A DNA stretch of 64,000 bases from Pseudomonas sp. SCA2728.1_7 (GTDB taxonomy: Bacteria; Pseudomonadota; Gammaproteobacteria; Pseudomonadales; Pseudomonadaceae), in contig NZ_CP073104.1 in NCBI RefSeq assembly GCF_018138145.1, positions 3,224,001 to 3,288,000 of the forward strand. Direction: 5' to 3'. A model generated the notes under the pieces. It worked only from the letters and a program-made list of their open reading frames with translations. It was not told the origin of the DNA and did no database searches. Of the stretch, positions 11,266-42,639 are shown piece after piece. Position 1 is the first letter of the stretch; every line of letters starts with the position of its first letter. Position numbers and translations under genes: made by a program.

Positions 11266-11282
11266 AATTGGTCTTACCAATT
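11266..11282. promoter_or_regulatory. LldR/FCD-GntR operator
   Basis: The inverted repeat AATTGGT-CTT-ACCAATT matches the TTGGTnnnACCAA operator consensus of the LldR/PdhR group. It lies 51 bp before lldP and about 195 bp before lldR, where it could control both. Confidence 0.8.
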
Positions 11283-11333
11283 ATCCAAGAACGCTGACAG
11301 TGCCTGACCAACAACAATTAGGGGCCACCCCAT

Positions 11334-13028
11334 ATGCAAACCTGGCAACAGCTCTACAGCCCGCTCGGCAGTCTCGGCGTATCCGCACTCGCGGCCGTCA
11401 TCCCCATCGTGTTCTTTTTCCTCGCATTAGCGGTGTTCCGCCTCAAAGGCCACGTGGCCGGGAGCATCACCCTCGCCCTGTCGATTGCCGTAGCGATCTT
11501 CGCGTTCCAGATGCCGGTCGACATGGCCTTCGCCGCCGCGGGTTATGGTTTCGCCTATGGTCTGTGGCCGATTGCCTGGATCATTGTCGCGGCGGTGTTC
11601 CTCTACAAACTGACGGTCAAAAGTGGTCAGTTCGAGGTCATTCGCAGCTCGGTGTTATCGATTACTGACGACCAGCGCCTGCAAGTGCTGCTGATCGGTT
11701 TCTGCTTCGGTGCGTTCCTGGAAGGTGCCGCCGGTTTCGGCGCGCCCGTGGCGATTACTGCGGCACTTCTCGTCGGCTTGGGCTTCAACCCGCTGTACGC
11801 CGCTGGCCTGTGCCTGATCGCCAACACCGCACCGGTTGCGTTCGGTGCACTGGGGATTCCGATCATTGTTGCCGGCCAAGTCACCGGCATCGACGCGTTC
11901 AAGATCGGCGCCATGACCGGTCGCCAACTGCCACTGCTGTCGTTGTTCGTGCCGTTTTGGCTGGTGTTCATGATGGACGGCCTGCGCGGCGTGCGCGAAA
12001 CCTGGCCGGCTGCACTGGTCGCGGGGCTGAGCTTTGCCATCACGCAATACTTCACCTCGAACTTCATCGGCCCGGAGCTGCCGGACATCACTTCGGCGCT
12101 GGCCAGCCTGATTTCCCTGACCCTGTTCCTGAAAGTCTGGCAGCCGAAACGCACCGCAGGTGCGCAAATCGCTGGTGCCACATCGAGTGCAGCGATCACC
12201 GCCAGCGTCGGCGGTTTCGGTCAGAAACGCACCACCGTGGCTTCGCCTTACAGCCTCGGGGAAATTTTCAAAGCCTGGTCGCCGTTCCTGATCCTCACCG
12301 TGCTGGTGACCATCTGGACCCTGAAGCCTTTCAAAGCGATGTTCGCCGCCGGCGGCTCGATGTACAGCTGGGTGTTCAACTTCGCGATCCCGCACCTTGA
12401 TCAGTTGGTGATCAAAACCGCACCGATCGTGGCTGCTCCAACGGCAATCCCGGCAGTGTTCAAACTTGATCCGATTTCCGCGACCGGCACGGCGATTTTC
12501 TTCTCCGCGCTGATCTCGATGTGGGTACTTAAGATCAATTTAAAAACTGGTCTGACCACTTTGAAAGAGACCTTCTACGAACTGCGCTGGCCAATCCTGT
12601 CTATCGGCATGGTGCTGGCGTTTGCCTTCGTTACCAACTACTCGGGCATGTCTTCGACCATGGCGCTGGTACTCGCCGGTACGGGCGCAGCGTTCCCGTT
12701 CTTCTCGCCGTTCCTCGGCTGGCTCGGTGTGTTCCTCACCGGTTCGGATACTTCGTCCAACGCGCTGTTCAGTTCGCTGCAAGCGACCACAGCACACCAG
12801 ATCGGCGTCAATGACACCCTGCTGGTCGCAGCGAACACCAGCGGCGGCGTGACCGGCAAAATGATCTCGCCACAATCGATCGCCGTGGCCTGCGCAGCGA
12901 CCGGTCTGGTGGGCAAGGAATCGGATCTGTTCCGCTTCACCCTCAAGCACAGCCTATTCTTTGCAACGATTGTCGGCTTGATCACGCTGGCTCAGGCCTA
13001 CTGGTTCACCGGCATGCTGGTGCACTAA
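11334..13028 (+). CDS. lldP: L-lactate permease LldP
   Basis: Proton-coupled lactate/glycolate symporter of 564 residues with about 13-14 hydrophobic segments. Family hallmarks include [20 protein letters not shown] near residues 120-145 and the C-terminal [16 protein letters not shown]. It is the first gene of the lactate locus, downstream of the LldR operator. A 161-bp gap separates it from lutA. Confidence 0.95.
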
Positions 13029-19448: not shown

Positions 19449-19837
19449 GGGGCCGTTTAGGATTCGACGCCGGTTGCGAAACTCTAGGTGCATGCCGACT
19501 TGGTAACAGAAGTCGTAAATCCACTGTTGCAACTACTTATAGTTGCCAATGACGACCAATACGGTGTTGCTCTCGCTGCTTAATTGCAGCTGACAATGCT
19601 CCTGGTACCTTCGGGTCCAGCAATCATCAGGGGATGTCTGTAAACCCAAAATGATTGTCATATAGAACAGAATCGCCGTGCAGTACGTTGTGGACGAAGC
19701 GGCTAAAACTTACACAACTCGCCCAAAGCACCCTGCCCGTCGGGTCGCTGAGGGTTAACTTAATAGACACGGCTACGCATGTAGTACCGACAGCGGAGTA
19801 CTGGCGGACGGGGGTTCAAATCCCCCCGGCTCCACCA
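19449..19837 (+). ncRNA. ssrA: Transfer-messenger RNA (tmRNA)
   Basis: The tRNA-like ends pair (GGGGCCG at the 5' end; CGGCTCC then ACCA at the 3' end) and a T-arm GGTTCAAATCC is present. The tag frame runs from 19545 to the TAA at 19581-19583 and encodes ANDDQYGVALAA, which has the conserved LAA degradation end. The body keeps the conserved pseudoknot region around the CUGGUACCUUCGGGUCCAG helix. With SmpB it rescues ribosomes stalled on broken mRNA. Its 3' end is the integration site of the island; the insertion leaves the RNA intact because the att repeat restores the end. Confidence 0.96.
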
Positions 19838-19838
19838 A
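19818..19838 (+). repeat. attL: tmRNA 3'-end core repeat
   Basis: This 21-bp copy, identical to 42619-42639, covers part of the T-arm, the acceptor stem and the CCA end of ssrA plus one base. It is the left integration junction. Confidence 0.93.
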
Positions 19839-19970: not shown

Positions 19971-20010
19971 TAAAACGCTCATCTGCTCGCTCGGAGAGGA
20001 TGTGCCCCCA

Positions 20011-21216
20011 ATGCCCCTGAAAGACACCAACTGCCGCAACGCCAAGCCCCAGGACAAGCCATACCGCCTGTACGACGAACAAGGTTTGTACCTTGAAGTG
20101 CAGCCCAACGGAGGCCGTTACTGGCGCTTGAAGTACCGCTTTCTGGGAAAGGAAAAGCGCCTGGCGCTTGGTGTTTATCCTGAGGTCGGCCTGCAGGAGG
20201 CACGACGCAAGCGTGATGATGCTCGTGTCCAGCTCGCCAGCGGCCAAGACCCTTCGCTGCAAAGACGCATGGCCAAGGTAGTCAGCCAGCTCGATCACCA
20301 ACACACCTTTGAATCGGTCGCTGAGCAATGGCTCACTATTCGCGAATCAACCTGGGATCCGGAATACACCCGCACGGTGCGGCAGCGCCTTGAACTCAAT
20401 GCCTACCCCTGGTTGGGAAAACTCCCGATCAGCAGCATCAGCACGCCCATGCTGGTCGAAAACCTGCAGCGCATCATCAAGCGCGGTGCTCGCGAGACGG
20501 CACGTCGTGTAGCTCAAATCTACAAACAGATTTTCGAGTTCGCCGAAGCTGCCGGTATCACCCCGCCCAACCAGATAGGGAATCTCTCACGGACGCTCCC
20601 AGCCAAGCGGGTGAAACACTTTGCTGCCGTGACCGATCCTGAAAAACTCGGCGCACTGCTCAAAGCACTGGATAGCTACACGGGAACACTGCCTGTTTGT
20701 TGTGCACTCAAACTGGCCCCGTTGTTGTTCTGCCGGCCCGGTGACCTGCGCCACATGGAGTGGTCCGAGGTCAATATGGATGCTGGCGAGTGGTTGATTC
20801 CTGGCCACAAAATGAAGGGCCTTACTGCGACCAAACAGGATCGCCCAGATCACTTGGTTCCCCTCAGCCAACAAGCAGTCGCAGTTCTGCGCGAGCTGAA
20901 ACCACTCACTGGCAGACATAGATATGCCTTCCCCTCAGCCCGAGGAGGCGACCGGCCGATGTCCAACAATGCCGTACTCAGCGCATTACGCCGCATGGAC
21001 ATCAGCGGCGACGAAATGACTGGGCACGGCTTTCGTGCGACAGCGAGAACCATAGGTGCGGAGGTGCTGGGGTTTCGTCCCGATCTCTTGGAGCATCAGC
21101 TTGCTCATACGGTAAAAAATCCGCTGGGACGTGCATACGATCGAACCACCTTCTTGCCGGAGCGCCATGAAATGATGCAGATCTGGGCCGACTATTTGGA
21201 CTCGATAAAGAGCTGA
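20011..21216 (+). CDS. P4-type tyrosine integrase
   Basis: The 401-residue site-specific recombinase has an N-terminal DUF4102 arm-binding domain (MPLKDTNCRNAKPQDKPYRL), a core-binding domain and the catalytic domain with Arg (CRPGDLRHMEW), His-x-x-Arg (GHGFRATART), His (LEHQLAHTV) and Tyr nucleophile (AYDRTTF). The start at 20011 is preferred over an in-frame GTG at 20002 because the GGAGAGG site (19993-19999) is correctly spaced only for the ATG. It is placed next to attL at ssrA, a common target for this family. Confidence 0.95.
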   Translation: MPLKDTNCRNAKPQDKPYRLYDEQGLYLEVQPNGGRYWRLKYRFLGKEKRLALGVYPEVGLQEARRKRDDARVQLASGQDPSLQRRMAKVVSQLDHQHTFESVAEQWLTIRESTWDPEYTRTVRQRLELNAYPWLGKLPISSISTPMLVENLQRIIKRGARETARRVAQIYKQIFEFAEAAGITPPNQIGNLSRTLPAKRVKHFAAVTDPEKLGALLKALDSYTGTLPVCCALKLAPLLFCRPGDLRHMEWSEVNMDAGEWLIPGHKMKGLTATKQDRPDHLVPLSQQAVAVLRELKPLTGRHRYAFPSARGGDRPMSNNAVLSALRRMDISGDEMTGHGFRATARTIGAEVLGFRPDLLEHQLAHTVKNPLGRAYDRTTFLPERHEMMQIWADYLDSIKS

Positions 21217-23325: not shown

Positions 23326-26300
23326 TCACTCAAAACTTTCCTCGCCCTCGCGGTCGCGGCTGCGCTCATGATCGATACGCCGGTCTAGCTCGGGGAGGAT
23401 GGCATCCACCCATTGCCGGACATCGGCATACGGGCTTTCGCGGAACGTCAACACCTGAGCCTTGCGACGGGCAAGGATGTCGGCAAGCGAGCCGCTCCAG
23501 CTCCGAGGATGGAGACGAGTCCAGAAATCGCCGAGAAAGGCGCGCTTGTCCGGCGCATAATTGAGCATATCGAGAAACAGCGGCGAGATGCCGTTATCCT
23601 CCTCGTCGTCGATCTTTCGCCTGAACATCGAGATGGCACGGCCGAGCAACGTATAGCGCGTCGCCGCATCCTGGTCCGCCCATTGGCGCAGGACCGCCGG
23701 GTCCATGTTCTCGACCGGTGTGCCGAAGCTGAAGTCCGCATCGAACAGCCGGTGGTTTCGCGATGTCATCTCAGGTAGGAGGAACATATCGAGCCCCGCA
23801 GCGGGGTGGGTCTCAAACAGCGCCTTCAGCACATGGCTCAAATCATGACGGGAAAGATAGCAGACCTCCATCGCGCCGCGGATATTTGCACAGACATCGC
23901 GAGCCGTCGCTTCACCGTCGCTCCCCGTACAGCAAACCCGAATGATCGTGTGCAGGCCATAGTCGCGCAAAGTGCCCTTCTTGCTGAAATCGGTGCGGCG
24001 CAGCAGGTTGCGGCCGAGCGCGATCAACGTCGGATTGCGCTGCCGGCCGGCTTCGCGGTCGCGATAGAAGTGCATGTGCAGGATATCGAGCGCGATCTCG
24101 ACCCCGTCCGGCAGATCCGCAATATCGAGCAGCAGGAGAGCTAATGCCTCCGGCGGTGAATCGCCAACGGTGCCGTTGGCGATGCTCATGAAGTCGAAGG
24201 ACTGAAGTGCCCCTTTCTCGATCGCGCGTCGCAGCCGCGCGATTCCTGCCTCGTCGATCCCAATCCGCGCCTGAAGATAAGGAAGCGAGCGGGCCAGTGC
24301 CGGGTTCTCGATCGCGGCTTCCAAGCTGGTTTCGGCAAAGCCAGTGTCACGCTGATGCGCTTCGTAGATGAACCCGCCGAGCACAGTCGCATTGCGGCTC
24401 TTAGACTCCGCCGCCTCGAAATGACCGACCAGATCGCGCCAGATCTCGGCAAGGTCACTCGCACCTTCGGCGAGGCCGCGTCCGCACTCGAGCGCGCGCT
24501 GGGCATGGGGTTCGACCATCAGCTCGGTCAGGAATTCGGCGCGCGTCTCGGAATCGTGCGCCAATTGCCGGCCGACATCCTGAGCCATTTGGGCGGCCCT
24601 GTGCCACGGCTTCATCACATCCCCATCGTCCGGCTCGCCGTCCGCAACTTCCCAGCCGCCAATGCTACGATTGAGCACGACCGCGCGCGCCTGATGGAGG
24701 AGGTCGGACGGCTTGAGCCGTTGGATGATCGCCTCGAGCCGCTTTCGCACTGGCTCGGGCATCGCGTTGCCTTCGAAGCGGAGGCAGGTGCGGAATGCGA
24801 TCCAGCCCTCGATCCAGGGCTTCACCTTGACGAACGTGCTCGCCGCGCGATCCAAGGCGTCGTGGCAGGCGCCAAAATGCCAAAGGTCGCGCACACTGCC
24901 GGCAAGCGTGATACGCGCGTCATTCAGGACTGACGACAGCTCGACGGCGAGATCGATAGCGCTGTCGTACCAATCCCACACGTCCTTGTTCAGCTTCGGA
25001 CGCCATCCCCAGTCGCGCGACCGTGCTCCGAAATCGAAGCTGCTCGACGAGGTGAAATTGTGCGCGGTCAGAAGCGCGTCAAGCGCGACGGATGCACAGC
25101 GGCGCTTGTCTGCATCACCGGATTTCGCCAGCAGACGCACTAACGCGCGCCGTTGCTCGGGTGGAGTCTGGGTCCCGGATAGATACAGGTGGAAGAGCTC
25201 GGCAAACGCGTCGCGGGCGGAGTTTTGATTTTGGTCGGCAGGCTCGGCGGCGAGGAAGCGGGCGAGCAGCGTCGCGGCGGTCTCGAACATGTGCTGCTCA
25301 TAGCCGAGCGTCTTGATGAGGCGGATCCATTGCCACCGGGTCGGCTCGTTCGACGACAGCAATGTTGCCCCGTTGGGACCATCCAGTTCGTGTTCGATTT
25401 TCGCCAGCACCGCCTCTGGCGCAACTGGGGCGATATTGGTCAGGATCTCGAGGCCTTCTTTGCCACGCGTCACGAGGTCCCCGAGCGGCCCATCGCTTCG
25501 CAGCCAGCGCGCGACCGCTGCCTGAGCCTCTGGGCTATCATGAAGATAGCCCAGACGGCGGGAGAGCGACGTCTGCATGCGTGGCGTCAGCGAGGCGCTG
25601 AACCGTTCGAAGTCCGACGGCGGTATCCGTTGGAGCGCGAATGTGGCAAGCGGGTTCGCAATCGCGTGTGGGAGGATCGCCTTCCAGCGGCCGCGCACTT
25701 GTGCGATGCCGCGTCGGCGAAGCTCCGCAAGTGCGGCGTAAAGCGTCGCCGCGCTCACCGATCGCAGGCCGCCGATGCGCGCGAGTTCGCCATCGGATGA
25801 GGTGTCCTCGCCGTTGACCGAATAGAGCAACGACAACTCTTCCGCCGCATTCAATAAATTCTGATCGGGCTGATTGCGCTGCTGGAAGATTCGCTCGAAC
25901 AGCTCGCGGCTCTTGAGCTTGCCCAGTGTCTCACCCTTACCGAGCGTTTCTGCCAGCGCGCGTGCCACGCGGAAGTTGCCATCGCTGAAGTCAGCGATGG
26001 TTCGCCGGTCGATCTCGGACACGTCCGGGAAGGATCGCTCGAGCCATTCTGCGACCAGGTCGGGCGAGGCGGACTGCAGCCGGAAGACTTCGGTTCGCTC
26101 GGGCTCGTCGTCGCGAACATCATATTCGACGGTGAGAAGGCTGACGGTGCTCGTGCTTTCCGAGCAGATGCGAGTGAGCTCGGTGTGAGTTGCCGGATTG
26201 CAATTATCGACTATAAGGATGGCTCGTTGCCCGCGCAGAACGAGCTGTCGTGCCATGTCGTGCGCGGTGGGATGGGTTTCGGCCGAATAGTCGGTATAGA

Positions 26301-27123
26301 TTGCGAGGCTCGGATCGAGCGGCTCCTCACCAACCTCGCTCTCGAACAGCGCCTGGACCAAACGCGTCTTGCCCAAGCCGGACATGCCGATCAACCGGAT
26401 ACATTGCTTCGGGGTGCGAAGCGCGGCGCGAAGACCCTTGATACCTTCGGCGATCGTCAGTTGCTCGCGTTCACGCGAGCGTTCATCGGTCAGGCAAGCC
26501 TTGTCGTTGGATAGATAGGAAGTATCCTCGGCAACGTGCGTTCCGGTCCATCCCCCGATGCTGCTCCAGCCCGACAGACCGAGGCCGACGCGGTTGCGGA
26601 CCCAGGCGGCGATGCCCGGATATTCGTTGACCCAGGTCGCGATGCGATCGCGGTCGTAGAAGTCGGTATGGAGATCACTGGCTTCGGGAAGATCGTGCAG
26701 CGCGGCGCGCATCGCCGAACGCCGATCTGCAAGCGGCTTATCTGCGACAGACCCCTGCGAACTGACGATGATGTAGGCGCCGGATTCTGCGGCGAGCTCG
26801 CAGATGACCTGCCGCAGCTTCCCGTCGACGCCACCCTTGGGCTTCGGCCGCATCTCGCCTTCGATGGCGCCTGCTGGCATGTCCGGCTTCTTCACCTGAA
26901 AGCCGGTGCATGACCGCGGCACGAAGTCGGGGTTTGCAATCGGCGCGGGACACTGCACGCGCACATCGAGTCCGCCATCCGCAGCGTCCTGATTGCCGCC
27001 TGCGGTGACCGCCGACAGGGGACAGCCCTGTTTTCGCAGCTCCGCCAGTGCAAGACGGGCGACGAGGGTGCGCAAATCGGCATCGCCCAGATTGGTGATA
27101 TCGGCACCTGTTACTTCGAGCAT
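23326..27123 (-). CDS. Large STAND-like NTPase with N-terminal PD-(D/E)XK nuclease motif (putative defence protein)
   Basis: The 1265-residue protein has an N-terminal domain with DGGLDVRV (Asp53) and GFQVKK (Gln76-x-Lys78), a D...QxK pattern of Mrr/Cap4-type endonucleases. A P-loop NTPase follows, with Walker A GMSGLGKT (residues 246-253) and Walker B AILIVDN (Asp306). About 800 residues of helical, HEAT/TPR-like sequence complete it. This order matches antiphage STAND proteins such as Avs, in which the C-terminal part senses a phage protein and the nuclease kills. Codon use is much more GC-rich than its neighbours and recalls an alphaproteobacterial donor. It is monocistronic. Sensor specificity is unknown. 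Confidence 0.7.
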   Translation of the reverse strand: MLEVTGADITNLGDADLRTLVARLALAELRKQGCPLSAVTAGGNQDAADGGLDVRVQCPAPIANPDFVPRSCTGFQVKKPDMPAGAIEGEMRPKPKGGVDGKLRQVICELAAESGAYIIVSSQGSVADKPLADRRSAMRAALHDLPEASDLHTDFYDRDRIATWVNEYPGIAAWVRNRVGLGLSGWSSIGGWTGTHVAEDTSYLSNDKACLTDERSREREQLTIAEGIKGLRAALRTPKQCIRLIGMSGLGKTRLVQALFESEVGEEPLDPSLAIYTDYSAETHPTAHDMARQLVLRGQRAILIVDNCNPATHTELTRICSESTSTVSLLTVEYDVRDDEPERTEVFRLQSASPDLVAEWLERSFPDVSEIDRRTIADFSDGNFRVARALAETLGKGETLGKLKSRELFERIFQQRNQPDQNLLNAAEELSLLYSVNGEDTSSDGELARIGGLRSVSAATLYAALAELRRRGIAQVRGRWKAILPHAIANPLATFALQRIPPSDFERFSASLTPRMQTSLSRRLGYLHDSPEAQAAVARWLRSDGPLGDLVTRGKEGLEILTNIAPVAPEAVLAKIEHELDGPNGATLLSSNEPTRWQWIRLIKTLGYEQHMFETAATLLARFLAAEPADQNQNSARDAFAELFHLYLSGTQTPPEQRRALVRLLAKSGDADKRRCASVALDALLTAHNFTSSSSFDFGARSRDWGWRPKLNKDVWDWYDSAIDLAVELSSVLNDARITLAGSVRDLWHFGACHDALDRAASTFVKVKPWIEGWIAFRTCLRFEGNAMPEPVRKRLEAIIQRLKPSDLLHQARAVVLNRSIGGWEVADGEPDDGDVMKPWHRAAQMAQDVGRQLAHDSETRAEFLTELMVEPHAQRALECGRGLAEGASDLAEIWRDLVGHFEAAESKSRNATVLGGFIYEAHQRDTGFAETSLEAAIENPALARSLPYLQARIGIDEAGIARLRRAIEKGALQSFDFMSIANGTVGDSPPEALALLLLDIADLPDGVEIALDILHMHFYRDREAGRQRNPTLIALGRNLLRRTDFSKKGTLRDYGLHTIIRVCCTGSDGEATARDVCANIRGAMEVCYLSRHDLSHVLKALFETHPAAGLDMFLLPEMTSRNHRLFDADFSFGTPVENMDPAVLRQWADQDAATRYTLLGRAISMFRRKIDDEEDNGISPLFLDMLNYAPDKRAFLGDFWTRLHPRSWSGSLADILARRKAQVLTFRESPYADVRQWVDAILPELDRRIDHERSRDREGEESFE

Positions 27124-31241: not shown

Positions 31242-31703
31242 CTACCCTGCCGAATAGAGGTCGCCATGATTAAGCGCTTGGTATCTAGACAGCTTCTTCT
31301 CATAAGCGACCAACGTCCGACGTAGCTGACGATTCTCGCTCGCAACGCGGCGAATCTCCGCAAGCCGCCCCTCAACTTGCAGAACGAGGTGACGGTATGG
31401 ATATTCAACAAACTCAAACGAGGAAGCCGGGTATTTATGTTTGCCATTCCCCTTGGCAATAGTCAGGGGCGCGAATTTGTTTTTTTGTCCTTGCAGCGGC
31501 ACCAGCTTGCACCAGTAGATCGAATACGCATTCGGGCTCACCTGCTTGATTGATACGCCGGCCACAACAGATTTGACCCCGGTCTTTTTGTACAGCTTCA
31601 TGGACGCATCCACATAGCTTGCTACCAGGCATCTCGCGTCCGTAAGCAACTGCTCGTACTGCTGATCCAGCAGGGTGACTATCGCTTGTGCTTCTTTGCT
31701 CAT
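31242..31703 (-). CDS. Hypothetical protein with C-terminal coiled coil (153 aa)
   Basis: The product starts MSKEAQAIVTLLDQQYEQLL at 31703; a TTG ten codons upstream is also possible. The central part is basic (KLVPLQGQKNKFAPLTIAKGNGKHKYPAS), and the C-terminal ~45 residues (VEGRLAEIRRVASENRQLRRTLVAYEKKL) form a coiled coil. No family is recognised. The promoter, start codon and first codons of this gene recur as a decayed copy at 36619-36839, so it belongs to a sequence that was once duplicated in the island. Confidence 0.5.
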   Translation of the reverse strand: MSKEAQAIVTLLDQQYEQLLTDARCLVASYVDASMKLYKKTGVKSVVAGVSIKQVSPNAYSIYWCKLVPLQGQKNKFAPLTIAKGNGKHKYPASSFEFVEYPYRHLVLQVEGRLAEIRRVASENRQLRRTLVAYEKKLSRYQALNHGDLYSAG

Positions 31704-31909
31704 GACGAAGGCTCTCTTCTTTGTAAGAGCCAAATGGTGACGGATCGCTGAGCACCCGGAATTCGATTTCAGACGGTTTTATCGTCGGAAACTTACGGAA
31801 GCGGAGTTGGTAATGCACCGCTGCCGCTCTGCCGCGTGTTAGATGATGACATTGCAGACGTACAGCAACATTACGCGCAAAGGATGCATAACAGACGACG
31901 ACGGATGCT
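31701..31909. repeat. Imperfect direct repeat, copy A
   Basis: This ~209-bp region covers the start codon and upstream region of the 153-residue gene. It is similar along its length to 36619-36839, with an identical 26-bp core (31759-31784, containing TTCGATTTCAGACGGTTTTA) and a shared GACGACGGATGC end. The rest of the gap up to 32099 shows nothing else. Confidence 0.7.
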
Positions 31910-32099: not shown

Positions 32100-33491
32100 T
32101 TATGACCCGCCTTTCCCAACTGGCGAAGGCAAAGTCGTAGGCAGCGCACGGGTAGCACGGAGTTCTTCCGCGATAATGGTCGCCTGCTGCAGAGCGGCAC
32201 TGTCAAGAAACGAAGCGTTCAGATCGAACGTGATGGCATCGTCGTCGGAGCTTTCCTTTATCGCATAGGGCCCGAAGAGGATGTCGCTGCTTCCCTCAAC
32301 ATGGGGCTGGAAACGTGACAGAGGATTACGACTGTCGTTCCCATTGTGTATCGCTATCGCGGAACCATTGTCGCTGTACATGGCACGCAGAACGGAGGGA
32401 TCGCGCTTACCACTAATCCATTGCCCGGGCGTGACAGGAGCGCCGTCCATTACTAGGGGCACGCGCAAGAGGTAAATTACCTCGTCTGCGTCCTCGATCC
32501 TGCTGAACGCAGCCTCATAGTCCGGCTGCCTACCCAAGATGCAGTCGACGTCCACCTGTATATCGAAGAAGGCCACTTTGCCGGCATTCGCTCTTACGTC
32601 ATAAAGGAGATCCAGAAGTTTTGGGCTACCTTGGTCAGCCGAGGTTGGACAGAACGTGTACCAGCCGGAAATGACGGGCATCTCAACACCTATCACTGCT
32701 GGCGTAATAGCTGGCTCTGTCTGGCGCGGAATTGCTTTCTGGGAACTGTTTGCTGCCGGGGATGCCACAGAGCCTGACACTTCTGATCCAGAAGGAGGGG
32801 CGCTGTCAACTGCAGGCCCATCATGCAACAAAGCCCATAACCTAGGCACGGTGTAGCCTGATAACGTCGCCACCATACTCGGCAGATTAAGCAACGCGGT
32901 TACCGTGGTAAGGACGACAAAAATGCCTGCTATGATCCTCCGGCCCCACGACGGCTTGGCGCAGATCAGCTTCGTACCACCGGGGAAGCGGCCGCGAAAA
33001 CAGAGCGCCCAGCTTCGAAATTTGAGCCACCGCATTCGCAACCGATCGGAAGGATAAGCCGTCTGGTCTACGATGCTGGATGCGCGGCAGCAACGGGCGA
33101 AGTCATGCGCTGCGCGATCGAGCCATTTACCTGCGATGGCATCCGTCGGACTGTCGAAGAAGCCCCAGAAAATTGGCTTCCCTGCGCCTAGGGACGTTTC
33201 GTAGGGATAGATTAAGGCCGCGACGTGGCCAAACTGGATGTCCTGTGACAACACGAGCGCCGCACCGCCTTCCGTCAGGGGACTTCCGTCATCGTTCGCC
33301 GATATCGGGTGGTTGCCGGCGAACAGCTGGATCGTCCGTCGACTATCGTCACGATGTACGTACAGATACTCAAAATAGTCGTGTCGTGCCTCTTCGGCGG
33401 CCGCGCGCATGTGCCGCTCAATGGCCGGGGCGTACTGGGACCAGATTCGCAGACGGGTCTGTGGCGTTTGCTGTCCAACAAAGATACTCAT
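32100..33491 (-). CDS. Membrane-anchored protein of unknown function
   Basis: The 463-residue product starts MSIFVGQQTPQTRLRIWSQY. The N-terminal ~175 residues are soluble and contain TEGGAALVLSQDIQFGHVAALIYPYE, WGFFDSPTDAI and a helical end. One transmembrane helix (RRIIAGIFVVLTTVTALLNL, about residues 186-205) is followed by a Ser/Pro/Ala-rich linker and a second folded domain. I recognise no family. It is divergent from the three-gene operon starting at 33657 (165-bp gap) and lies inside the A/B repeat pair, so it may belong to the same module. Confidence 0.5.
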   Translation of the reverse strand: MSIFVGQQTPQTRLRIWSQYAPAIERHMRAAAEEARHDYFEYLYVHRDDSRRTIQLFAGNHPISANDDGSPLTEGGAALVLSQDIQFGHVAALIYPYETSLGAGKPIFWGFFDSPTDAIAGKWLDRAAHDFARCCRASSIVDQTAYPSDRLRMRWLKFRSWALCFRGRFPGGTKLICAKPSWGRRIIAGIFVVLTTVTALLNLPSMVATLSGYTVPRLWALLHDGPAVDSAPPSGSEVSGSVASPAANSSQKAIPRQTEPAITPAVIGVEMPVISGWYTFCPTSADQGSPKLLDLLYDVRANAGKVAFFDIQVDVDCILGRQPDYEAAFSRIEDADEVIYLLRVPLVMDGAPVTPGQWISGKRDPSVLRAMYSDNGSAIAIHNGNDSRNPLSRFQPHVEGSSDILFGPYAIKESSDDDAITFDLNASFLDSAALQQATIIAEELRATRALPTTLPSPVGKGGS

Positions 33492-33656
33492 CGAGTCCCC
33501 GATTTTTTGTGTCGGATTGATCCTGCGCAGAGGCGTGATACCAAGCGAACAGGTAATCACCTTGTACTCGGCTTATCCATCGTGTTCACTGCGCTATTAT
33601 AAGTGCCATCACGGTGCTAGCGCCGCTTTGACCAACATTAAAGAGCCCAGGGAATT

Positions 33657-34634
33657 ATGGCCGAGACGATAAACATCGCGAAGATGGCAGAAAAGCTATC
33701 GAAGGGAATTTTCAACGAGTTTCTCTGGGGTCGCATGGAGCACACCAATATCAATTGGCCGTGCGAGCATCAAGAAACCCACGAGGTCAAGACCCATCCC
33801 TCCGATGTCGTCTTTTGGTATAACGAGCCGTACTCCCAGTCTCGCACCTATGTGAACTGCGACCTCAAGAGTTACGCGAAGGGCACCATCAAAACACAGG
33901 CCATCCGGGAGGCAATCGAGAGCCTAGCCAGGAGCCTGCGGTGCGCCGAGATCAGCCAGGAGTTCAGCGACACCTACATCCATCCGGATGTATCGGCGAA
34001 TATCCAGGGACTGCTTTTCGTCTACAACCACGATAACGAGTATGACAAGGACTTCGCCAAGATCCTTGAAAAGGTGAAATGCGAAGACTTGGATATCCCA
34101 AAGGGCTCCAAGATCGTTGTGATGGGCCCTGAGGATATTTACTGGCTGAACAACGTTCACCACGAGATCATCCATCTGCGCGGCGGTGCCGGTCTACTAC
34201 CAGAGCGGGATTACTGTAAGTTCTATTATCCCCATCTGGTTCGCAGGAAGAACGTCCAGCTCGAACACGCCAAAGCTGCGACGCTAGATATGCTGACCGC
34301 GCCTTGGATTATTTTGTCCTACGTGAACCCAAAAAAGGGAAGCAAGCAGGGCTTCGTGATCTTCATGCGTAAGAGGGGAATCACGACCGATGAGTTTCTT
34401 TACCTCATTGAGTACCTGATGCACTACCAAGTAATCAAGGCCGAAACAGAGGTCACGATCCGCCTGGTTGACCCACACCAAAACGCTTCTGCTAATTTCG
34501 CCAAGGCAAAAGACCAGTACATAACTGACTATCAAGGCGGGGACGATCTCAGGCAAATACTGGATGCTATTGACTTCGGCAAACTTGAACACGTACGCAC
34601 CACTTTCTGTGAACTGGAGCTCTCCCGCCAATGA
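33657..34634 (+). CDS. Putative PD-(D/E)XK nuclease-like protein, first gene of a three-gene operon
   Basis: The 325-residue product contains HPSDVVFWYN followed by RTYVNCDLKSYAKG. An Asp and a downstream D-L-K in a strand context resemble the D...(D/E)xK core of restriction-type nucleases. A hydrophobic strand GLLFVYNHDNEYD and a C-terminal WIILSYVNPKKGSKQGFVIFM follow. No named family is recognised. Its stop overlaps the next start (ATGA). The start is at 33657 with an AGGGAA-like site before it. The operon is flanked by imperfect direct repeats, which points to cassette exchange. Confidence 0.5.
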   Translation: MAETINIAKMAEKLSKGIFNEFLWGRMEHTNINWPCEHQETHEVKTHPSDVVFWYNEPYSQSRTYVNCDLKSYAKGTIKTQAIREAIESLARSLRCAEISQEFSDTYIHPDVSANIQGLLFVYNHDNEYDKDFAKILEKVKCEDLDIPKGSKIVVMGPEDIYWLNNVHHEIIHLRGGAGLLPERDYCKFYYPHLVRRKNVQLEHAKAATLDMLTAPWIILSYVNPKKGSKQGFVIFMRKRGITTDEFLYLIEYLMHYQVIKAETEVTIRLVDPHQNASANFAKAKDQYITDYQGGDDLRQILDAIDFGKLEHVRTTFCELELSRQ

Positions 34635-35758
34635 TCAAAAATGCGCTTCAGTACTGTGCGACGGACAAGGAAATTCACGACGCTTTGATGTCGGCCAAGC
34701 AGAAAATCAATGAAAAGGTTCTGCTTGAACTGGCAAAGGACAGGGGGATTTTCTACTCCGCCAAAGACAGCCGGGACGACCTGGTCAGCGCCATCTCTCT
34801 CCTCCCTCATGACTATCATGATCTGAACACCCTATTGGAACAGCGAGAGCACTCCGGCCGACAGGAAAAGCTCACCTCCGTGACGCTGCCAACTGCGCTG
34901 ACCGTGGAAGGAATCCGGGAAGTGCTCCGCGAATACATTGAGGAGTCTCCCGAGGACGAGAAGGTTACTCAGCAAATAAAGGACGGCAACCAAGTCGTCG
35001 CCAACATTAAGTACTCCGACGTCGACTATGGCAAAACACGGCTTGTCCAGCGCACCCCCAAAGAGGCCTCGATCGAGTTTCACGTCTCAGCAGACAAGAC
35101 GGTCATTCGGATGCCTGCCAATGATCGTGTGAAAACCATCTACTCCAAGCTCAAGCACAAGCTGGATACCAAGGCCAAAGCTGAAATCCCCGCCATCCGC
35201 ATCGAGCTCGGCGAGTTCCAGTCCCCTGCCCTGCGTACAGAGTTCTTTACATCCCTGATCAGCAATCTAGCGGGCTTCTCATTGAAGAACGTAACCAGCG
35301 TGAAGGTGGAGCGCCTGCCTCAGGAACCAGAGGAGGACGAGCTCGACCTAGACGATGACCAAGAAGCGGAGGTGGCCAAAGAAGAGGCATTGGCGCTGGT
35401 CAAGAACGTAGCGCTAAAAGGCGAGACGCTACTAGCGTCCGAGGAGTACCAGAGCCTGACCAAGAAGGGTTTCTTCATCACCTCGATTATCTGGCGCTCC
35501 GTGCTGCACAAGGCACCACAGCCAATGGTTGAATTTGAGGCAGCGTTTGAGGAACCGATGCAAGGAAAAGGTTTCAAGTACTTCGTCCGAGGTGCCTACC
35601 GGCTGGTAGAACTCGAGTACACCAAGACGATCCGGCCGGTCACCGCCGGAGACAAAGAAACCTATCTGGGCATCATCGAAGAAACCGCTGCGAAGGTTAT
35701 CAAGGAACTCAGAGTGCAAGCTCAAGCAGGTACTGAAATGCAAGGAGAGCTAGCATGA
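34631..35758 (+). CDS. Unknown protein, second gene of the three-gene operon
   Basis: The 375-residue soluble protein has a helical N-terminus, a charged middle with a very acidic stretch (QEPEEDELDLDDDQEAEVAKEE, about residues 230-251, written here only to mark it) and a beta-rich C-terminus (VEFEAAFEEPMQGKGFKYFV). No catalytic motif is evident. It is coupled on both sides by ATGA overlaps, so its amount should match that of its partners, as in a complex. It may be a sensor or scaffold for the nuclease-like partner. Confidence 0.5.
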   Translation: MIKNALQYCATDKEIHDALMSAKQKINEKVLLELAKDRGIFYSAKDSRDDLVSAISLLPHDYHDLNTLLEQREHSGRQEKLTSVTLPTALTVEGIREVLREYIEESPEDEKVTQQIKDGNQVVANIKYSDVDYGKTRLVQRTPKEASIEFHVSADKTVIRMPANDRVKTIYSKLKHKLDTKAKAEIPAIRIELGEFQSPALRTEFFTSLISNLAGFSLKNVTSVKVERLPQEPEEDELDLDDDQEAEVAKEEALALVKNVALKGETLLASEEYQSLTKKGFFITSIIWRSVLHKAPQPMVEFEAAFEEPMQGKGFKYFVRGAYRLVELEYTKTIRPVTAGDKETYLGIIEETAAKVIKELRVQAQAGTEMQGELA

Positions 35759-36435
35759 ACAGGGTGAGGTGGCTGAATGCCCAATGGCCTTCATCGATTC
35801 GATCAGTAGGGAAGAAGCTCATCGATATGCCATTCACGGAGGAGAGCATGGATGGCTTCGCTATCGAGCGAATCAGGGATGACTTCATCGAGGGGCGTTA
35901 CATCGAAAAGTACAGTTACCAGGAGGTGATATCGACCCCTTTTGGGAGTGAGGAGGTACTTGATCGAATAGGGTATCGGACGACGGAGTTCACGCTTTTC
36001 GATTCGCCTCCCCACATTGAGCTCAGAAATTACCCGCGCAGTCTCAAGGAACTGATCAGCCGCTTGCTTGAAGCCTGCAATTTCAACCTGATAGTGACGC
36101 CTCCTTCGGTAAACCTGATCGAATGGGTCTCGGCTCTGCAGGACGCGGTAGATCAGACAGTCACCGTCGACTCGCTCCAAGTCTCCGGTGTCGAAATAGA
36201 TGAAGGGGTGACAGGGAAAATTTTGCTCAAAGGGGTAAAAGATGTGCGCGATGCCACCGATATTCTTCTGGCCGGCCGCAAACATGTGCTGGAAAAAGTC
36301 CAAGTAAAATTCTCGGACTTTAACAAAACCGTTGCCATTCAGCTGTCCAACAAAGGCACCGCGAAGCTACCTTCAGCGCTACCGAGCGATCTTCTACGTC
36401 ATCTACGAACGTCCTTTCCTCGCAACATCAGTTGA
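35755..36435 (+). CDS. Unknown protein, third gene of the three-gene operon
   Basis: The 226-residue soluble protein starts MNRVRWLNAQWPSSIRSVGK in an ATGA overlap with the preceding gene. It has no signal peptide, no membrane segment and no motif I recognise. It has alternating beta and helix in the C-terminal half (VEIDEGVTGKILLKGVKDVRDATDI). The operon ends here without a clear terminator, 184 bp before repeat copy B. Confidence 0.5.
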   Translation: MNRVRWLNAQWPSSIRSVGKKLIDMPFTEESMDGFAIERIRDDFIEGRYIEKYSYQEVISTPFGSEEVLDRIGYRTTEFTLFDSPPHIELRNYPRSLKELISRLLEACNFNLIVTPPSVNLIEWVSALQDAVDQTVTVDSLQVSGVEIDEGVTGKILLKGVKDVRDATDILLAGRKHVLEKVQVKFSDFNKTVAIQLSNKGTAKLPSALPSDLLRHLRTSFPRNIS

Positions 36436-37150
36436 GCAGTCGCCAGATATCGCTATAGAAGAGGGATACCGGCCCGCTAGAGCATAAATTGCAGTCCAGC
36501 AAACCTACGCAAGTAATCGAGGATTGTTTATGGCCGGTTCCTACCCGGCGTTCTGAGCGGGAATGATTAGTCAGAAATCTATGTTGGGTCAGTTTTTCAA
36601 TCAGCGCCGACATTTACTCATGACCAAGGCTCTCTTTGCTGTAAGAACCAAAATGGTGACCGACTGTTTACCACCCCGAATTCGATTTCAGACGGTTTTA
36701 TCGCCGGAAATCTACCGAAAGTGGGAGGTCTCGCTCACGATATCACCTTGCCTTGCATCAGATGGTCGACAGATGACGACATATCAGACGCAGAAAAACA
36801 TGAGATGAAAAGGATGCACAGTAGATGACGACGGATGCCTTGATTCTGGGCAACAATGTGAAGGCTCGCTTCCGTGGTCAGGCTAAGAATACCGCGCAAC
36901 TGGTGACGCTGTTCGCGCTGTCAAATCTGTGGATGACACGTAGACATTTACTTACGAATACGGGAGAGGTGCGCCCGTAATATGGGCAATAGCCGCCGCG
37001 AGGTGCTCGCGGCGATTAGAAACATAGAAATCAGCGAGTGATCTGATCGTTTTTGATCGATTTACCGCTTTCAAAATCAGTGGGTGCTGAAGTCGGCCAG
37101 GAATGCAAGGCCACTTCAGAGGGTCCCTAGAAAGCCAGAAAAGGAAGCTC
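36436..37150. other. Non-coding gap holding repeat copy B
   Basis: The 715-bp gap lies between the three-gene operon and the caspase operon, which end toward each other. It contains repeat copy B (36619-36839) and no supported gene. A GATCG-TTTTT-GATCGA near-palindrome (about 37046-37061) is the only other structure I see. Confidence 0.5.
36619..36839. repeat. Imperfect direct repeat, copy B (decayed gene start)
   Basis: Similar to 31701-31909 in the same orientation, with an identical 26-bp core at 36678-36703. On the minus strand it retains the ATG (36619-36621) and the codons for Met-Ser-Lys, then diverges and hits a stop after three more codons. It is therefore the promoter and start stub of a lost relative of the 153-residue gene. 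Confidence 0.7.
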
Positions 37151-39064
37151 TTAGAATACAACGCCCTCGTTCTTTAACGCTTGGCTTATGAACTCCTGTT
37201 CATTAGCCGGCAGCCCCTCTATACACTTTCTCAACGCTTGCGCTGCTGTGCTGGTAAGGGGTTGATAACGTAAAGTTATGGCCACCTGCAATAAAAGGTC
37301 AACTTGACCTGGATACTGGTCGCGATTGACGTCCAATATTTCCGTCCAGTTCAGCTCATTGACCTGTCTCTGCCACTGCTCAAAGTCATGACGGCATAGG
37401 TATTCTAAAAATGCCCGGCGCACCCAAGGATGAGGGTCAATGGCAGCCCAACACAAGTGATCCAAATCACCAACGCCTGGCCCCCCCCCTTCAAAAACAG
37501 CCATGCGATGAGGGACGCTGGGCACCAACTTGGGTATAGCAGCTAAAAATTCATGCCTATCAGACAACTTCATATGCCCGAGGAGATCGCGCCCGATATC
37601 AAGACTAATCGCCTGACGCCAAGCTCCATATAGTTTCGAGCGCAACCACTTCCGAGATCCGAACGCACTGGTCGTACCTCGAGGTTTACTAGAGTGCAGC
37701 TTCCACGCAGCCTTCAGAAGAGGAAGTTTCGTTATGCCGCTATAATTTTTGAGCACGTTCAGACCGACTTTTTCATCCTGAGCTTGGTCTAATTCGCTCA
37801 TAAAGAGCAGATAGGCGACTGGATCACTTTGATGCGTGGCATTCTGCCTGGAATGTGTCACGACCTCTGAGGGAACGGTGAGCTTTAGGACTCGAGTTAA
37901 TTCGTAGAGTCCCCAACCTGAATCGCGAAAGCCATCTGACAACGCTGAGTCCCAATCAACGCGATATTCAGGATCCACATCATTTAGATATAAGGCGGCG
38001 AGCCATTTTATATCCATGGGCATGTCAGAGTTAAGTAAATCGATACAATGCTCTATGGTTATCGACGCTTCAAAAACTCGCTTAGCGGCATTCAACCCAA
38101 CAGCTACGTTCATCCACAAACCAGATCTAATTAGGTTCATCACATGCCGCCGGGACTGCTCCCGTAAGTATTTTACAGTACTCAGTGAACTGCCCATTGC
38201 ACGACGCACTAGCCAACTGGGCTCCAAGTACCGGTCACGCTCGATGCGGGAAAAAATTTCAAGAGTGAGTTTTTCTGGCTCATCGCTCAATGCAAACCAT
38301 AGCGTCTCTCGTTCTGACTGCCGTCCCGTTACGATACGCTGATATGTGGTTTCGATCAGTCTAACAAAGTCATCGTCTTGAACTTGAGCTTTTGCAATGT
38401 TCAAGTCTAAGACGCCATCTACTCTATGATGCTGCAACTCAGTGCTGCCGGTTGTTAGTCGATTTACATTTTGTACCAACCGATTAACCGTCACCGGCTC
38501 GTTTTGGTTAACTAAGGTACCAAGAGCTTGCCGTAGTGCATGGGCAAAAGGACTGCCATCCTCTGCATCCTCTGCCAATTCATAGGCCGCCGTGGGAGTC
38601 AACAGTTCCACATTAATCAGCCACCCGGCAGACGAGTTTTTGAATATAGCTGTTGCTGCAGTGGCGGAATAGCAGCAATCAAGTAGTAACAAAATTTTTG
38701 GACGATTGGCCAAACGATGAGTATCAAGCAGTCGATCGATTGAGCATCGCCCTTGAAATGCAGGGTCATCGATCAAGAGTAGTTCAAGTTGACCCAACTT
38801 TATCTCAGCATGCCCACTGAAATACAAAATAAGTAAATCATTGGGTAGGCAACTTCCCATCGCGGACTCAATGGTAGCGATAAACTGCGCGCCGGTCGGG
38901 TCAAGCACCACAATGCTGCGTTCTTCAAGAAAAGTAGACGCTGCGGCAAGACGAAGCGCTTCATAGAGCAAAAAAGGGTCTTTAATGGGACCAGATAAAG
39001 GCGCCCTGGATCGGTAATTTGAGACACCAAACCCGATAAAAATGATCCGCGTAGGAAAACTCAC
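37151..39064 (-). CDS. Caspase-like (C14/metacaspase) protease with helical C-terminal region
   Basis: The 637-residue product has an N-terminal caspase fold (about residues 1-240) with the catalytic His in LYFSGHAE (His85) and the catalytic Cys in LLLLDCCYSA (Cys131). About 390 residues of HEAT-like helices follow. The GTG start at 39064 has a GAGGAG site 6 bp away; an in-frame TTG at 39088 lacks one. It is the last gene of a five-gene operon with a radical SAM enzyme and a nucleotide kinase, so it is the likely effector that cleaves cell proteins. A run of nine G on the coding strand (37481-37489) could allow on/off slippage. Confidence 0.82.
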   Translation of the reverse strand: MSFPTRIIFIGFGVSNYRSRAPLSGPIKDPFLLYEALRLAAASTFLEERSIVVLDPTGAQFIATIESAMGSCLPNDLLILYFSGHAEIKLGQLELLLIDDPAFQGRCSIDRLLDTHRLANRPKILLLLDCCYSATAATAIFKNSSAGWLINVELLTPTAAYELAEDAEDGSPFAHALRQALGTLVNQNEPVTVNRLVQNVNRLTTGSTELQHHRVDGVLDLNIAKAQVQDDDFVRLIETTYQRIVTGRQSERETLWFALSDEPEKLTLEIFSRIERDRYLEPSWLVRRAMGSSLSTVKYLREQSRRHVMNLIRSGLWMNVAVGLNAAKRVFEASITIEHCIDLLNSDMPMDIKWLAALYLNDVDPEYRVDWDSALSDGFRDSGWGLYELTRVLKLTVPSEVVTHSRQNATHQSDPVAYLLFMSELDQAQDEKVGLNVLKNYSGITKLPLLKAAWKLHSSKPRGTTSAFGSRKWLRSKLYGAWRQAISLDIGRDLLGHMKLSDRHEFLAAIPKLVPSVPHRMAVFEGGGPGVGDLDHLCWAAIDPHPWVRRAFLEYLCRHDFEQWQRQVNELNWTEILDVNRDQYPGQVDLLLQVAITLRYQPLTSTAAQALRKCIEGLPANEQEFISQALKNEGVVF

Positions 39065-39088
39065 GAAACGCTCCTCGCCAAATAGCAA

Positions 39089-39379
39089 TTACTCCTCATG
39101 CTCCTCAGTCGTGATCTCAGGCAGTGTCTGACCGCGAGCTTCAGCAGCCTGTTTCGCATTGCTGATCAACATTTTGATTAGATCGTATACGGCATTGGAG
39201 GTGACATTTAGCGCCAGCCCAATGATGATACTTGACACTAAATCACCTTTACTATTCGCAACGCTGTTGGACTCGCTTTTGACCTCGCCCCAACCGCGCT
39301 GAGCAATGCTTGCCGAAATTTCGTCCAACAATGCACTGCTCACAGGAGTGACCGCATCGGGCTTTACAACTATTTTCAT
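39089..39379 (-). CDS. Small protein with a hydrophobic segment, partner of the caspase-like protease
   Basis: The 96-residue product has a beta-like N-terminus (MKIVVKPDAVTPVSSALLDE), a hydrophobic stretch (DLVSSIIIGLALNVTSNAVYDLI, roughly residues 46-68) and an acidic tail ending EEHEE. The hydrophobic stretch may be a membrane helix or the core of a small helical domain. Its start overlaps the radical SAM stop by 4 bp and it ends 24 bp before the protease start. The position suggests an adaptor, inhibitor or activating partner of the protease. No family recognised. Confidence 0.55.
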   Translation of the reverse strand: MKIVVKPDAVTPVSSALLDEISASIAQRGWGEVKSESNSVANSKGDLVSSIIIGLALNVTSNAVYDLIKMLISNAKQAAEARGQTLPEITTEEHEE

Positions 39380-40248
39380 TTTTCCTCCAATGGCGCACTT
39401 GCGCCAGACGATAAGATTACGGCCGTGATGTCTTCAATATCATTTAGTGCTACATCTATCCCAACACCATCGACCGCGCCAGTGGTGTGCTTTTGTAGAA
39501 GCCCCGAAGGATGTAAAACCCAGTAATCACTGTAGAGGCTAGACTTGCGCACAATCAGCGCGACCTCTGATTCTAAAAGCTGCCTGGCACGCTGAACCAC
39601 GGCCTCGAATTGGCGCTCACTGAGGTGGTAGTCTTTGTAGGTTTCTTTCTGATTGGCTGGGTGAGGTTGAATCAAGCACCACTCTCGGACACCAGACTGA
39701 TCAACCCATTTTGCTAACTGCTCAAAAGTCGACTCAAACTCGAAGGAACTGGTTGCCACTGTGTTTATACGCAGTTTTTGCCGACGTGTTGTCTCATCAA
39801 GTTGCCGCACAATATCATTGACATTTTTCCAGGCGTTGATATTCCCCCTTAACCGGTCATGAGCTCCACCATATGCATCCAGACTCATGATTAACCTTGT
39901 GAGATGCGGGGCTAACGAGGGAAGGAACTCAAGGTTGTCTCTTCGCCCCACACCGCTGGTAGTGAGGGTACAACATATCCCTTGTGCCCGGATTTTTTCG
40001 ATGAGCATCGGCAAATGTTGATAAACCAAAGGCTCACCACCGCCGATATCAATTTTTTGAACTCCCAGTTGTTCAAAAATAGTCAAGATACGATCTATCG
40101 CCTCAGGGAGCACGGTTTGCTCTGTTTTTGGCGAAAAGCAGTACGGGCAGCTTAGCGGACACACATCTGTTATGTGCCACATAACATGAGGTAGGACGCA
40201 ATCCGAGTCGCCAGGGTAAAAAACGTTACGCTCTGAATCGTAGATCAA
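39376..40248 (-). CDS. Radical SAM enzyme, viperin-like
   Basis: The 290-residue protein has the cluster motif CPLSCPYC (CxxxCxxC) within WHITDVCPLSCPYCF, then KIDIGGGEP, SLDAYGGAHDRLRG and a C-terminal half with WCLIQPHPA and DYWVLHPSG. There is no SPASM extension. The layout (WHxT, CF..KT..VLP, GGEP, W..xQ, SxLxxP.G) recalls viperins, which turn NTPs into chain-terminating ddhNTPs, and the nucleotide kinase next door fits. The SLDxxxxHDRLRG segment, however, is closer to PqqE-type enzymes, so a peptide-modifying role is possible. It overlaps both neighbours by 4 bp. Confidence 0.6.
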   Translation of the reverse strand: MIYDSERNVFYPGDSDCVLPHVMWHITDVCPLSCPYCFSPKTEQTVLPEAIDRILTIFEQLGVQKIDIGGGEPLVYQHLPMLIEKIRAQGICCTLTTSGVGRRDNLEFLPSLAPHLTRLIMSLDAYGGAHDRLRGNINAWKNVNDIVRQLDETTRRQKLRINTVATSSFEFESTFEQLAKWVDQSGVREWCLIQPHPANQKETYKDYHLSERQFEAVVQRARQLLESEVALIVRKSSLYSDYWVLHPSGLLQKHTTGAVDGVGIDVALNDIEDITAVILSSGASAPLEEK

Positions 40249-40925
40249 AGCAATGATCTCTTGATTAGTATCTCGCGCACCGAATTTAGAATGACTGTTT
40301 TTTCAAGCAATTGACCCTGCTCGCCCTCGCATTGCACCAGTGCCGCGTCTGCTCTATCCCTACACAACTCATGGTAGAGCCTCCAAGAACGCACTTGAAG
40401 GTCTGGATCGCCTTCGTATACATCAAGCTCGCTGGCGGTGTATTCGCGCACACCTTTCTTCTGCATGTTCGAGGCCGACGATTTGGGGGAAACGTCAAAC
40501 ACAAGAAACAAATCAGGTCGCGGGATGCCCAGCTCCTCAAATTCTAGTTGCTCGATCCAGTTGAGCATGTGCTCTGGATCCGCAGCCCGCAGCGACTGGT
40601 AAACCATACTAGAGAGTGTGGAACGATTGAGTAACACATAGTCAGAAGCCAACCACTGCTCGGAGGTCCGATCATAGTCGCTGCGTCGATCAAGTGCGTA
40701 CCAAAGCGCCATAGACTTGGGATCTAAGGTGCTGGCAGAGCGTCCTAGGTCCTGCCCGGATAGAAGCTTGCCAATCTCTCGGCCGAAAAATTGATCATAC
40801 CGAGGATAATCAGCGATCCAAACGCGCTTGCCGTGCGCCCTCAAGTGCTCTGCTAAGAGCTTGCACTGCGTCTCTTTGCCACTACCGTCGATGCCTTCAA
40901 ATGCAATGATGCTTGGCTTAGGCAT
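40245..40925 (-). CDS. Thymidylate kinase-like nucleoside monophosphate kinase
   Basis: The 226-residue kinase has the P-loop FEGIDGSGKETQ, a DRR-like motif (WYALDRRSDY, where dTMP kinases have DR.) and a Tyr-rich acceptor region (YPRYDQFFGREIGKLL). Glu follows the P-loop Lys where Ser/Thr is usual, a variant I recall from some bacterial dTMP kinases. The housekeeping tmk is elsewhere in Pseudomonas, so this is an accessory copy. Vertebrate CMPK2, adjacent to viperin, has the same fold. It overlaps the radical SAM gene (4 bp) and the upstream gene (8 bp). Confidence 0.8.
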   Translation of the reverse strand: MPKPSIIAFEGIDGSGKETQCKLLAEHLRAHGKRVWIADYPRYDQFFGREIGKLLSGQDLGRSASTLDPKSMALWYALDRRSDYDRTSEQWLASDYVLLNRSTLSSMVYQSLRAADPEHMLNWIEQLEFEELGIPRPDLFLVFDVSPKSSASNMQKKGVREYTASELDVYEGDPDLQVRSWRLYHELCRDRADAALVQCEGEQGQLLEKTVILNSVREILIKRSLL

Positions 40926-41289
40926 GACCTTCCTCTGCCTCTAGGCGATAGGCAGTGCAGATCAGCGAGGACAAGATCGAAGGATCGACAGAAAACTCAT
41001 TGGCCGTCCGCTGATATTCAAGAGCACGCGCTTCACGCGAGGCAGTATCCAGCTCAGCGGTACCGAACACACTCCAAGCAGCCAGCTGAATTAACGTAGG
41101 AGTGGGCTGCTCTGCTGGCTGAAAGCCGTGCTTGCGCAGAGCCGCGTTATACCAGTCCAGCAATAGCTGCTCCTGAGAGCGAGTCAACGTTAATGATTCT
41201 TTTTCACTAACGTTCTGCCCCCCCAGCTGTGACCATTGGGACAGTAGCTTTTTCCTAAGACTCATAGAGGAGTCGGGGGCTGAATTCAT
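40918..41289 (-). CDS. Small helical protein, first gene of the caspase operon
   Basis: The 123-residue product is predicted mostly alpha-helical (QEQLLLDWYNAALRKHG, LIQLAAWSVFGTAELDTASREARALEY). No motif is recognised. The start at 41289 has GAGG 8 bp upstream; MSLRKK eight codons in is an alternative. It overlaps the kinase by 8 bp and opens the five-gene operon, so it could be a regulator or sensor. A run of seven G lies near its front (about 41218-41224). Confidence 0.5.
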   Translation of the reverse strand: MNSAPDSSMSLRKKLLSQWSQLGGQNVSEKESLTLTRSQEQLLLDWYNAALRKHGFQPAEQPTPTLIQLAAWSVFGTAELDTASREARALEYQRTANEFSVDPSILSSLICTAYRLEAEEGHA

Positions 41290-42561: not shown

Positions 42562-42618
42562 CCTAATAATAAACTTGTAACTAAATTAATAAAAAACAAT
42601 AGGTTATACATAGATTTT

Positions 42619-42639
42619 AAATCCCCCCGGCTCCACCAA
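42619..42639 (+). repeat. attR: tmRNA 3'-end core repeat
   Basis: This 21-bp copy is identical to 19818-19838 and stands alone without the remainder of ssrA, marking the right junction of the island. Confidence 0.93.

Follow-up and report, generated by a model that had tools for sequence, protein, structure and literature searches.

The window analyzed here, a stretch of 64,000 nucleotides (positions 3224001-3288000) from the genome of Pseudomonas sp. SCA2728.1_7, a single contig of 6,782,730 bases, carries on its minus strand a five-gene operon encoding a kinase in two parts, a viperin-like radical SAM (rSAM) enzyme, a small protein and a caspase-like protease. Our analyses established the gene structure of the operon, the domain and fold assignments and intact catalytic motifs of its products, its recurrence, its gene fusions and its defence-island setting. 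Very probably the five genes form one defence-type unit. Our reading of the sequences, to which we give a probability of roughly one half, is that this would be a mobile operon directed against phages (or mobile elements) and made of two coupled halves. In the front half, the kinase (genes 1 and 2) and the rSAM enzyme (gene 3) would act one after the other on a nucleotide (probably a deoxynucleotide, or an analogue, that the kinase handles), and the modified nucleotide would be made once infection disturbs nucleotide pools. In the back half, the EACC1-like protein of gene 4 would keep the caspase/helical-array protein of gene 5 inactive until the modified nucleotide, or a complex of rSAM enzyme and kinase, engaged the small protein and released the protease, which would then cleave host proteins so that the infected cell is stopped. 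We infer from the gene anatomy that the kinase and rSAM enzyme act in series and that their product or complex arms the caspase, and we likewise infer the substrate, the product, the sensing partners, the role of the product as trigger and the outcome. More tentatively still, the kinase and the viperin-sister rSAM enzyme could make an unusual (deoxy)nucleotide that serves not mainly as a chain terminator but as an alarm sensed through an EACC1-like/caspase complex.

The five genes were located where the initial annotation had placed them, with overlaps of 8, 4 and 4 base pairs (bp). Its 24-bp gap and His85/Cys131 numbering also hold, given that gene 5 starts at the GTG codon at 39064 and encodes 637 amino acids (aa); the relative P0122 opens with the same VSFP. 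The operon has a guanine-plus-cytosine content of 0.47-0.51. Between 36436 and 41941, promoter-like sites were not in excess (6 vs 5.3 in shuffled sequences), and there were 11 terminator-like sites vs 5.4 in shuffles, ten of them within genes.

Gene 3 (39376..40248, minus strand, 290 aa) encodes a viperin-like rSAM enzyme of a separate family. An AlphaFold2 (AF2) model of the protein had a predicted local distance difference test (pLDDT) score of 95, and a structure search with gene 3 returned viperin as the top folds in the Protein Data Bank (PDB). The CxxxCxxC and GGEP motifs were present as described, with C30, C34 and C37 invariant in all 28 family rows and the glutamate of GGEP being E in 26 rows and D in two. 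The claimed lack of a SPASM domain was borne out, there being no Pfam SPASM match at an E value of 1 or better. The maturase models of NCBIfam covered only the rSAM core of gene 3 and scored below viperin, which was the best profile for all four family members scored, and the best defence match of gene 3 in PADLOC 2.0 was pVip (89.4 bits, E 6.6e-26). Against the NF038283 viperin profile, which has a cut-off of 180 bits, gene 3 and its relatives L002, L086 and P0051 scored 84.9, 88.2, 91.7 and 65.9 bits, respectively, compared with 332.5 bits for a true viperin (L088) used as a control. Phylogenetic analysis placed the 28 family rows and ten viperins in two distinct groups with Shimodaira-Hasegawa-like approximate likelihood ratio test (SH-aLRT) values of 96 and 99. 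The groups were again apart, with support of 91/96 and 100/99, in a reduced, more careful tree for which 26 of 76 rows had been removed before building (long branches, odd composition and near-duplicates).

These data indicated that the description of gene 3 as viperin-like stands as regards the nearest fold and best profile, with the protein lying outside the viperin clade and under the 180-bit cut-off. A plain viperin was ruled out by the separate clade, the NF038283 cut-off and the missing lysine described below. A peptide maturase was disfavoured by the lack of a SPASM match and by the viperin fold being nearest; this reading was retained as a rival because SuiB and SkfB were only ~3 Z units below viperin in the fold search. 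A conserved tyrosine was dropped as a viperin mark, since eight of ten MoaA rows also have Tyr in that column.

From their sequences, genes 1 and 2 most plausibly represent one kinase split in two, because gene 1 corresponds to the N-terminal portion of longer kinases. Gene 2 (40245..40925, minus strand, 226 aa) has the claimed thymidylate-kinase (TMK) fold: it matched PF02223 (Thymidylate_kin) with 71.4 bits vs a cut-off of 27 in the Pfam scan, and its nearest solved relatives were thymidylate kinases (70 bits), which we take to be the Mycobacterium tuberculosis enzyme. In its P-loop (residues 10-17), G11, D13, G14, S15, G16 and K17 were invariant across 19 aligned rows. At residues 100-101, the 19 aligned relatives have NR where DR stands in the nearest solved thymidylate kinase, a difference that bears on substrate binding. 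Gene 2 was also under the cut-offs of the dTMP kinase equivalog models (NF005923, 126.6 vs 193; TIGR00041, 72.3 vs 83.25) and scored 15.6 bits against VakA, a profile on which kinases adjacent to viperins reached 226 and 246 bits. Gene 1 (40918..41289, minus strand) had no family match above cut-off in the Pfam, PADLOC and NCBIfam scans. It is, as first described, a 123-aa helical protein, and it could be placed further as an N-terminal kinase domain: it matched the N-terminus of a fused kinase, P0137 (BLASTP E 6e-9), and a profile of seven fused N-terminal domains (hmmsearch E 1.2e-7, vs E 0.46 for the best-scoring of 2000 shuffled sequences). In L002, a single protein spans genes 1 and 2, as was the case for all six longer relatives examined (from nine of 324-359 aa among 120 kinases listed, of 633). 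The Azospirillum locus L086 has a 166-aa gene in the gene 1 position with a weak match to the fused N-terminal profile (E 0.068).

The remaining two genes form the putative back half. Gene 4 (39089..39379, minus strand, 96 aa) encodes a small EACC1-like protein whose hydrophobic helix ends in NAVYDLIK. It has counterparts in L002, L003 and L086, and the same type of domain is fused to the rSAM enzyme in P0049 and P0066. Across the small proteins, invariance was limited to a single Ser column and a single Lys column. Searches for the EACC1 family PF19953 in 121 genomes of the phylum of L033 gave one match barely above cut-off, in our judgement in no convincing gene; in its class, two of 29 genomes had matches, the second under cut-off and with stops. 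EACC1 genes were found in none of ten relatives. Gene 5 (37151..39064, minus strand) encodes a caspase domain, in which the catalytic His85 and Cys130/131 are present as claimed, followed by an all-helical C-terminal array. Its only significant NCBIfam match was NF047832, at 50.4 bits vs a cut-off of 140, and all six caspases tested were under that cut-off (49.9-69.5 bits). In PADLOC 2.0, gene 5 matched caspase (30.9 bits), genes 1 and 4 had no comparable match and gene 2 had partial matches only. A nine-G run at 37481-37489 (minus strand) inside gene 5 is a possible slippage site; P0121, which is 98% identical to gene 5, has Thr in place of the third of three Gly at this run.

Recurrence of the gene set in unrelated genomes, which the initial annotation had proposed looking for, was observed: the order was found again in L002, L003 and L086. 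In L002 a fusion of genes 1 and 2 is followed by the rSAM, small-protein and caspase genes, and L003 has rSAM, small protein and caspase preceded by a gene for a 194-aa P-loop protein. These two came from a genome-contig scan that kept 80 of 192 relatives, in which only L001-L004 (E 2e-36 or better) were in the family. L086, a plasmid of Azospirillum argentinense with kinase, rSAM, small protein and caspase, was the one such record among 72,556 plasmids, in a search that listed 20 of 44 records; no match to the 96-aa gene 4 protein was found among plasmids at E 0.1. The L086 caspase gene is present as two overlapping frames, 10174-10365 and 10359-12068, which may represent a frameshift, an inactive copy or a sequencing error.

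As an indirect sign of linkage we considered contigs of identical size. By this measure, 13 of 70 rSAM clusters paired with one of the 120 kinases listed of 633, and five of ten caspase relatives paired with an rSAM cluster, compared with no pairing with kinase or caspase in 50 control rows (P0071-P0120, mostly MoaA). In Pseudomonas sp. NPDC089401, the rSAM, kinase and caspase rows all showed a contig of 339,100 bases. The system is rare: with at most six candidates per genome scored, it was identified only in the window's own genome among 398 of the genus (E 1e-30) and among 398 of the phylum (E 1e-40), and the sample for the phylum of L002 likewise gave only L002's own genome among 398 (E 1e-40). 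Six weak partial matches among phages were not accepted as family members, and the operon DNA had no match in E. coli genomes (near mode). Among viral contigs only L084 was found, and it has the same open reading frames as L003, so it is no independent case. L084 carries relaxase and AbiEi-like genes and resembles a mobilisable element more than a virus.

A 22.8-kilobase (kb) island (19815-42639) at a transfer-messenger RNA (tmRNA) site carries the operon as its last cargo, and all the other cargo lies towards the integrase. The attachment site attL (19815..19838, plus strand) is at the 3' end of the tmRNA gene (19449-19837) and is one copy of a 24-nucleotide direct repeat, 96% identical, that contains CCCCGGCTCCACCA; the second copy, attR (42616..42639, plus strand), ends the island. 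A tyrosine integrase gene (20002..21216, plus strand; PF13356, PF22022 and PF00589) follows attL, and the island also encodes a resolvase and MobI. Other cargo comprises a full-length PD-Lambda-4_A homologue (23326-27123, 1265 aa, 1234 bits) and a three-gene plus-strand set (33657-36435) matching PADLOC Hp1, Hp2 and Hp3 (224, 124 and 86 bits), of which the first two genes are weakly GapS4a/GapS4b-like by NCBIfam. Imperfect direct repeats (76-85%) at 31695-31908 and 36613-36838 bracket 32100-36435, a cassette that looks as if inserted or duplicated at its edges. In the Azospirillum locus, MzaB and MzaC are within ~0.7 kb after the operon, and L003 has an AbiEi-like gene and a relaxase nearby. 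Defence-type neighbours in three separate settings would, through guilt by association, be consistent with a role in defence.

Several observations weigh against the proposed coupled operon. The kinship of the gene 3 family and viperins was weakly supported (85/66), and the approximately unbiased (AU) test gave p values of 0.33 for a joint family-viperin clade, 0.053 for the family with MoaA and 0.079 for viperin with MoaA. The Lys of the [RK][WF]K motif, which has a role in substrate binding in viperin, was present in all ten viperins and was Cys in all 28 gene 3 family rows. This replacement points to a different substrate or to one that is less phosphorylated, and because of it the substrate or reaction of the family may differ from those of viperins. 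None of the six small proteins or domains matched PF19953 in the Pfam scan. The hydrophobic segment that the initial annotation had described in the 96-aa protein is present, and is only moderate, the best 19-residue hydropathy of the six gene 4-type proteins or domains being 1.54-2.50. The further claim that viperin relatives often neighbour nucleotide kinases held for three of ten bacterial or archaeal viperin loci examined (L088, L090 and L094), and no recognised kinase adjoined the other seven. In addition, the P-loop protein in the kinase slot of L003 gave no TMK match, and two of the four family loci from the genome scan lacked the gene set. One of these, L004, is a 3.2-kb contig with rSAM alone; in the other, L001, neither a kinase nor a caspase gene adjoins rSAM. 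After its rSAM gene, L001 instead has a 473-aa helical protein (9853-11274) that lacks a caspase and whose C-terminus matches the candidate defence family PDC-M14B. Finally, contact between the halves is seen in fusion and gene order only.

We favour coupling over two independent layers because of the rSAM-small-protein fusions, and the initial annotation's interpretation of the operon as a two-layer anti-phage system was partly supported. In the independent version, which we consider unlikely, a kinase-fed rSAM enzyme would make a chain-terminating nucleotide that blocks phage synthesis directly, as prokaryotic viperins do, and the EACC1-like/caspase pair would form an independently triggered suicide module. 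The viperin-like fold of gene 3, its pairing with a kinase and the description of EACC1-caspase as a stand-alone two-gene system (PMC7159879) are consistent with it. However, the rSAM enzyme is fused to the small protein in two relatives and overlaps it by 4 bp here, the caspase subtype often accompanies rSAM (the five of ten relatives above), and the common lysine of viperins is missing from the family. Somewhat less credible is an rSAM enzyme that modifies the EACC1-like protein or the caspase and so arms the complex, with the kinase-like protein as a nucleotide-binding sensor. The closeness of SuiB and SkfB agrees with such a role; the lack of a SPASM match, viperin as best profile in four of four, the single Ser and Lys columns shared by the small proteins and the intact P-loop of the kinase all argue against it. 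An rSAM enzyme and a nucleotide kinase also occur together in the Photorhabdus thmA-C genes (rSAM, nucleoside kinase and NTPase), which make 4'-thiothymidine (PMC12691670), but a nucleoside-antibiotic-like cluster is very improbable here, as it has no evident place for the caspase and EACC1-like genes, the family scans found no thmC-kind NTPase among the five genes, and the operon sits among defence genes. An accidental gathering of unrelated genes in the island is scarcely credible, for although defence islands collect unrelated systems and the rSAM gene is rare (present in one genome, the window's own, among 398 of the genus), the gene order recurs in other bacteria and there are two kinds of gene fusion (genes 1-2 and rSAM-small protein).

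If the product is such an alarm nucleotide, a viperin-type reaction would directly switch on a bacterial caspase, and two animal-like branches of immunity, viperin/CMPK2 and caspases, would meet in one operon. Viperins and caspases are among the best-known immune parts common to bacteria and animals and were treated as separate systems in the literature examined; a conserved operon in which a caspase is tied to a kinase and a viperin-like enzyme would reveal a shared pathway. It would also prompt a search for a new nucleotide-modifying radical SAM reaction and make testable whether viperin-type nucleotides serve as signals besides poisons.

The gene set was undescribed in the open literature searched, which excludes the majority of subscription papers and of the more recent system catalogues. 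The carrier of the operon, as distinct from the system, resembles the I23/I44/I55 islands: it shares the tmRNA insertion, tyrosine integrase, defence-type cargo and 14-bp repeat CCCCGGCTCCACCA reported for Pseudomonas tmRNA islands with putative phage-defence systems (PMC12595487). The 23-bp end of those islands differs at four places, by eye, from the 25 bases at 42614-42638, and a term search of the main text of that report was negative for viperin, radical SAM, caspase and thymidylate. Viperin converts nucleoside triphosphates (NTPs) to 3'-deoxy-3',4'-didehydro (ddh) nucleotides (PMC10732462). Like the prokaryotic viperins (pVip; SAND; NF038283), some of which have an adjacent nucleotide kinase (VakA), gene 3 has an rSAM core without a SPASM match, the nearest fold, the H of WHxT, the W of the [RK]W/EW motif and an adjoining TMK-fold kinase. 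Unlike them, its family forms its own tree group at 65.9-91.7 bits vs 180 with Cys for the conserved Lys, its kinase is not VakA and its operon is coupled to a caspase. CMPK2 has a TMK-type domain. In animals, viperin is paired with this nucleotide kinase (the human RSAD2-CMPK2 gene pair; PMC10058120), as the viperin-type enzyme is with a kinase here, and the available text of that source describes no caspase or EACC1 partner. Kaur et al. (2020, PMC7159879) described EACC1-caspase as a two-gene conflict system, for which a coupling of membrane sensing to proteolysis is proposed; the operon resembles this system in having a small hydrophobic-helix gene directly 5' of one whose product has a caspase at the N-terminus and another domain at the C-terminus. 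It differs in that gene 5 is under the NF047832 cut-off, gene 4 has no PF19953 match, and kinase and rSAM genes precede the pair; in the main text of PMC7159879, radical SAM appears a single time, for a different system, and viperin is absent. Judged from sequence comparisons, one conserved operon here combines modules of two familiar kinds, both of which have diverged beyond their family cut-offs.

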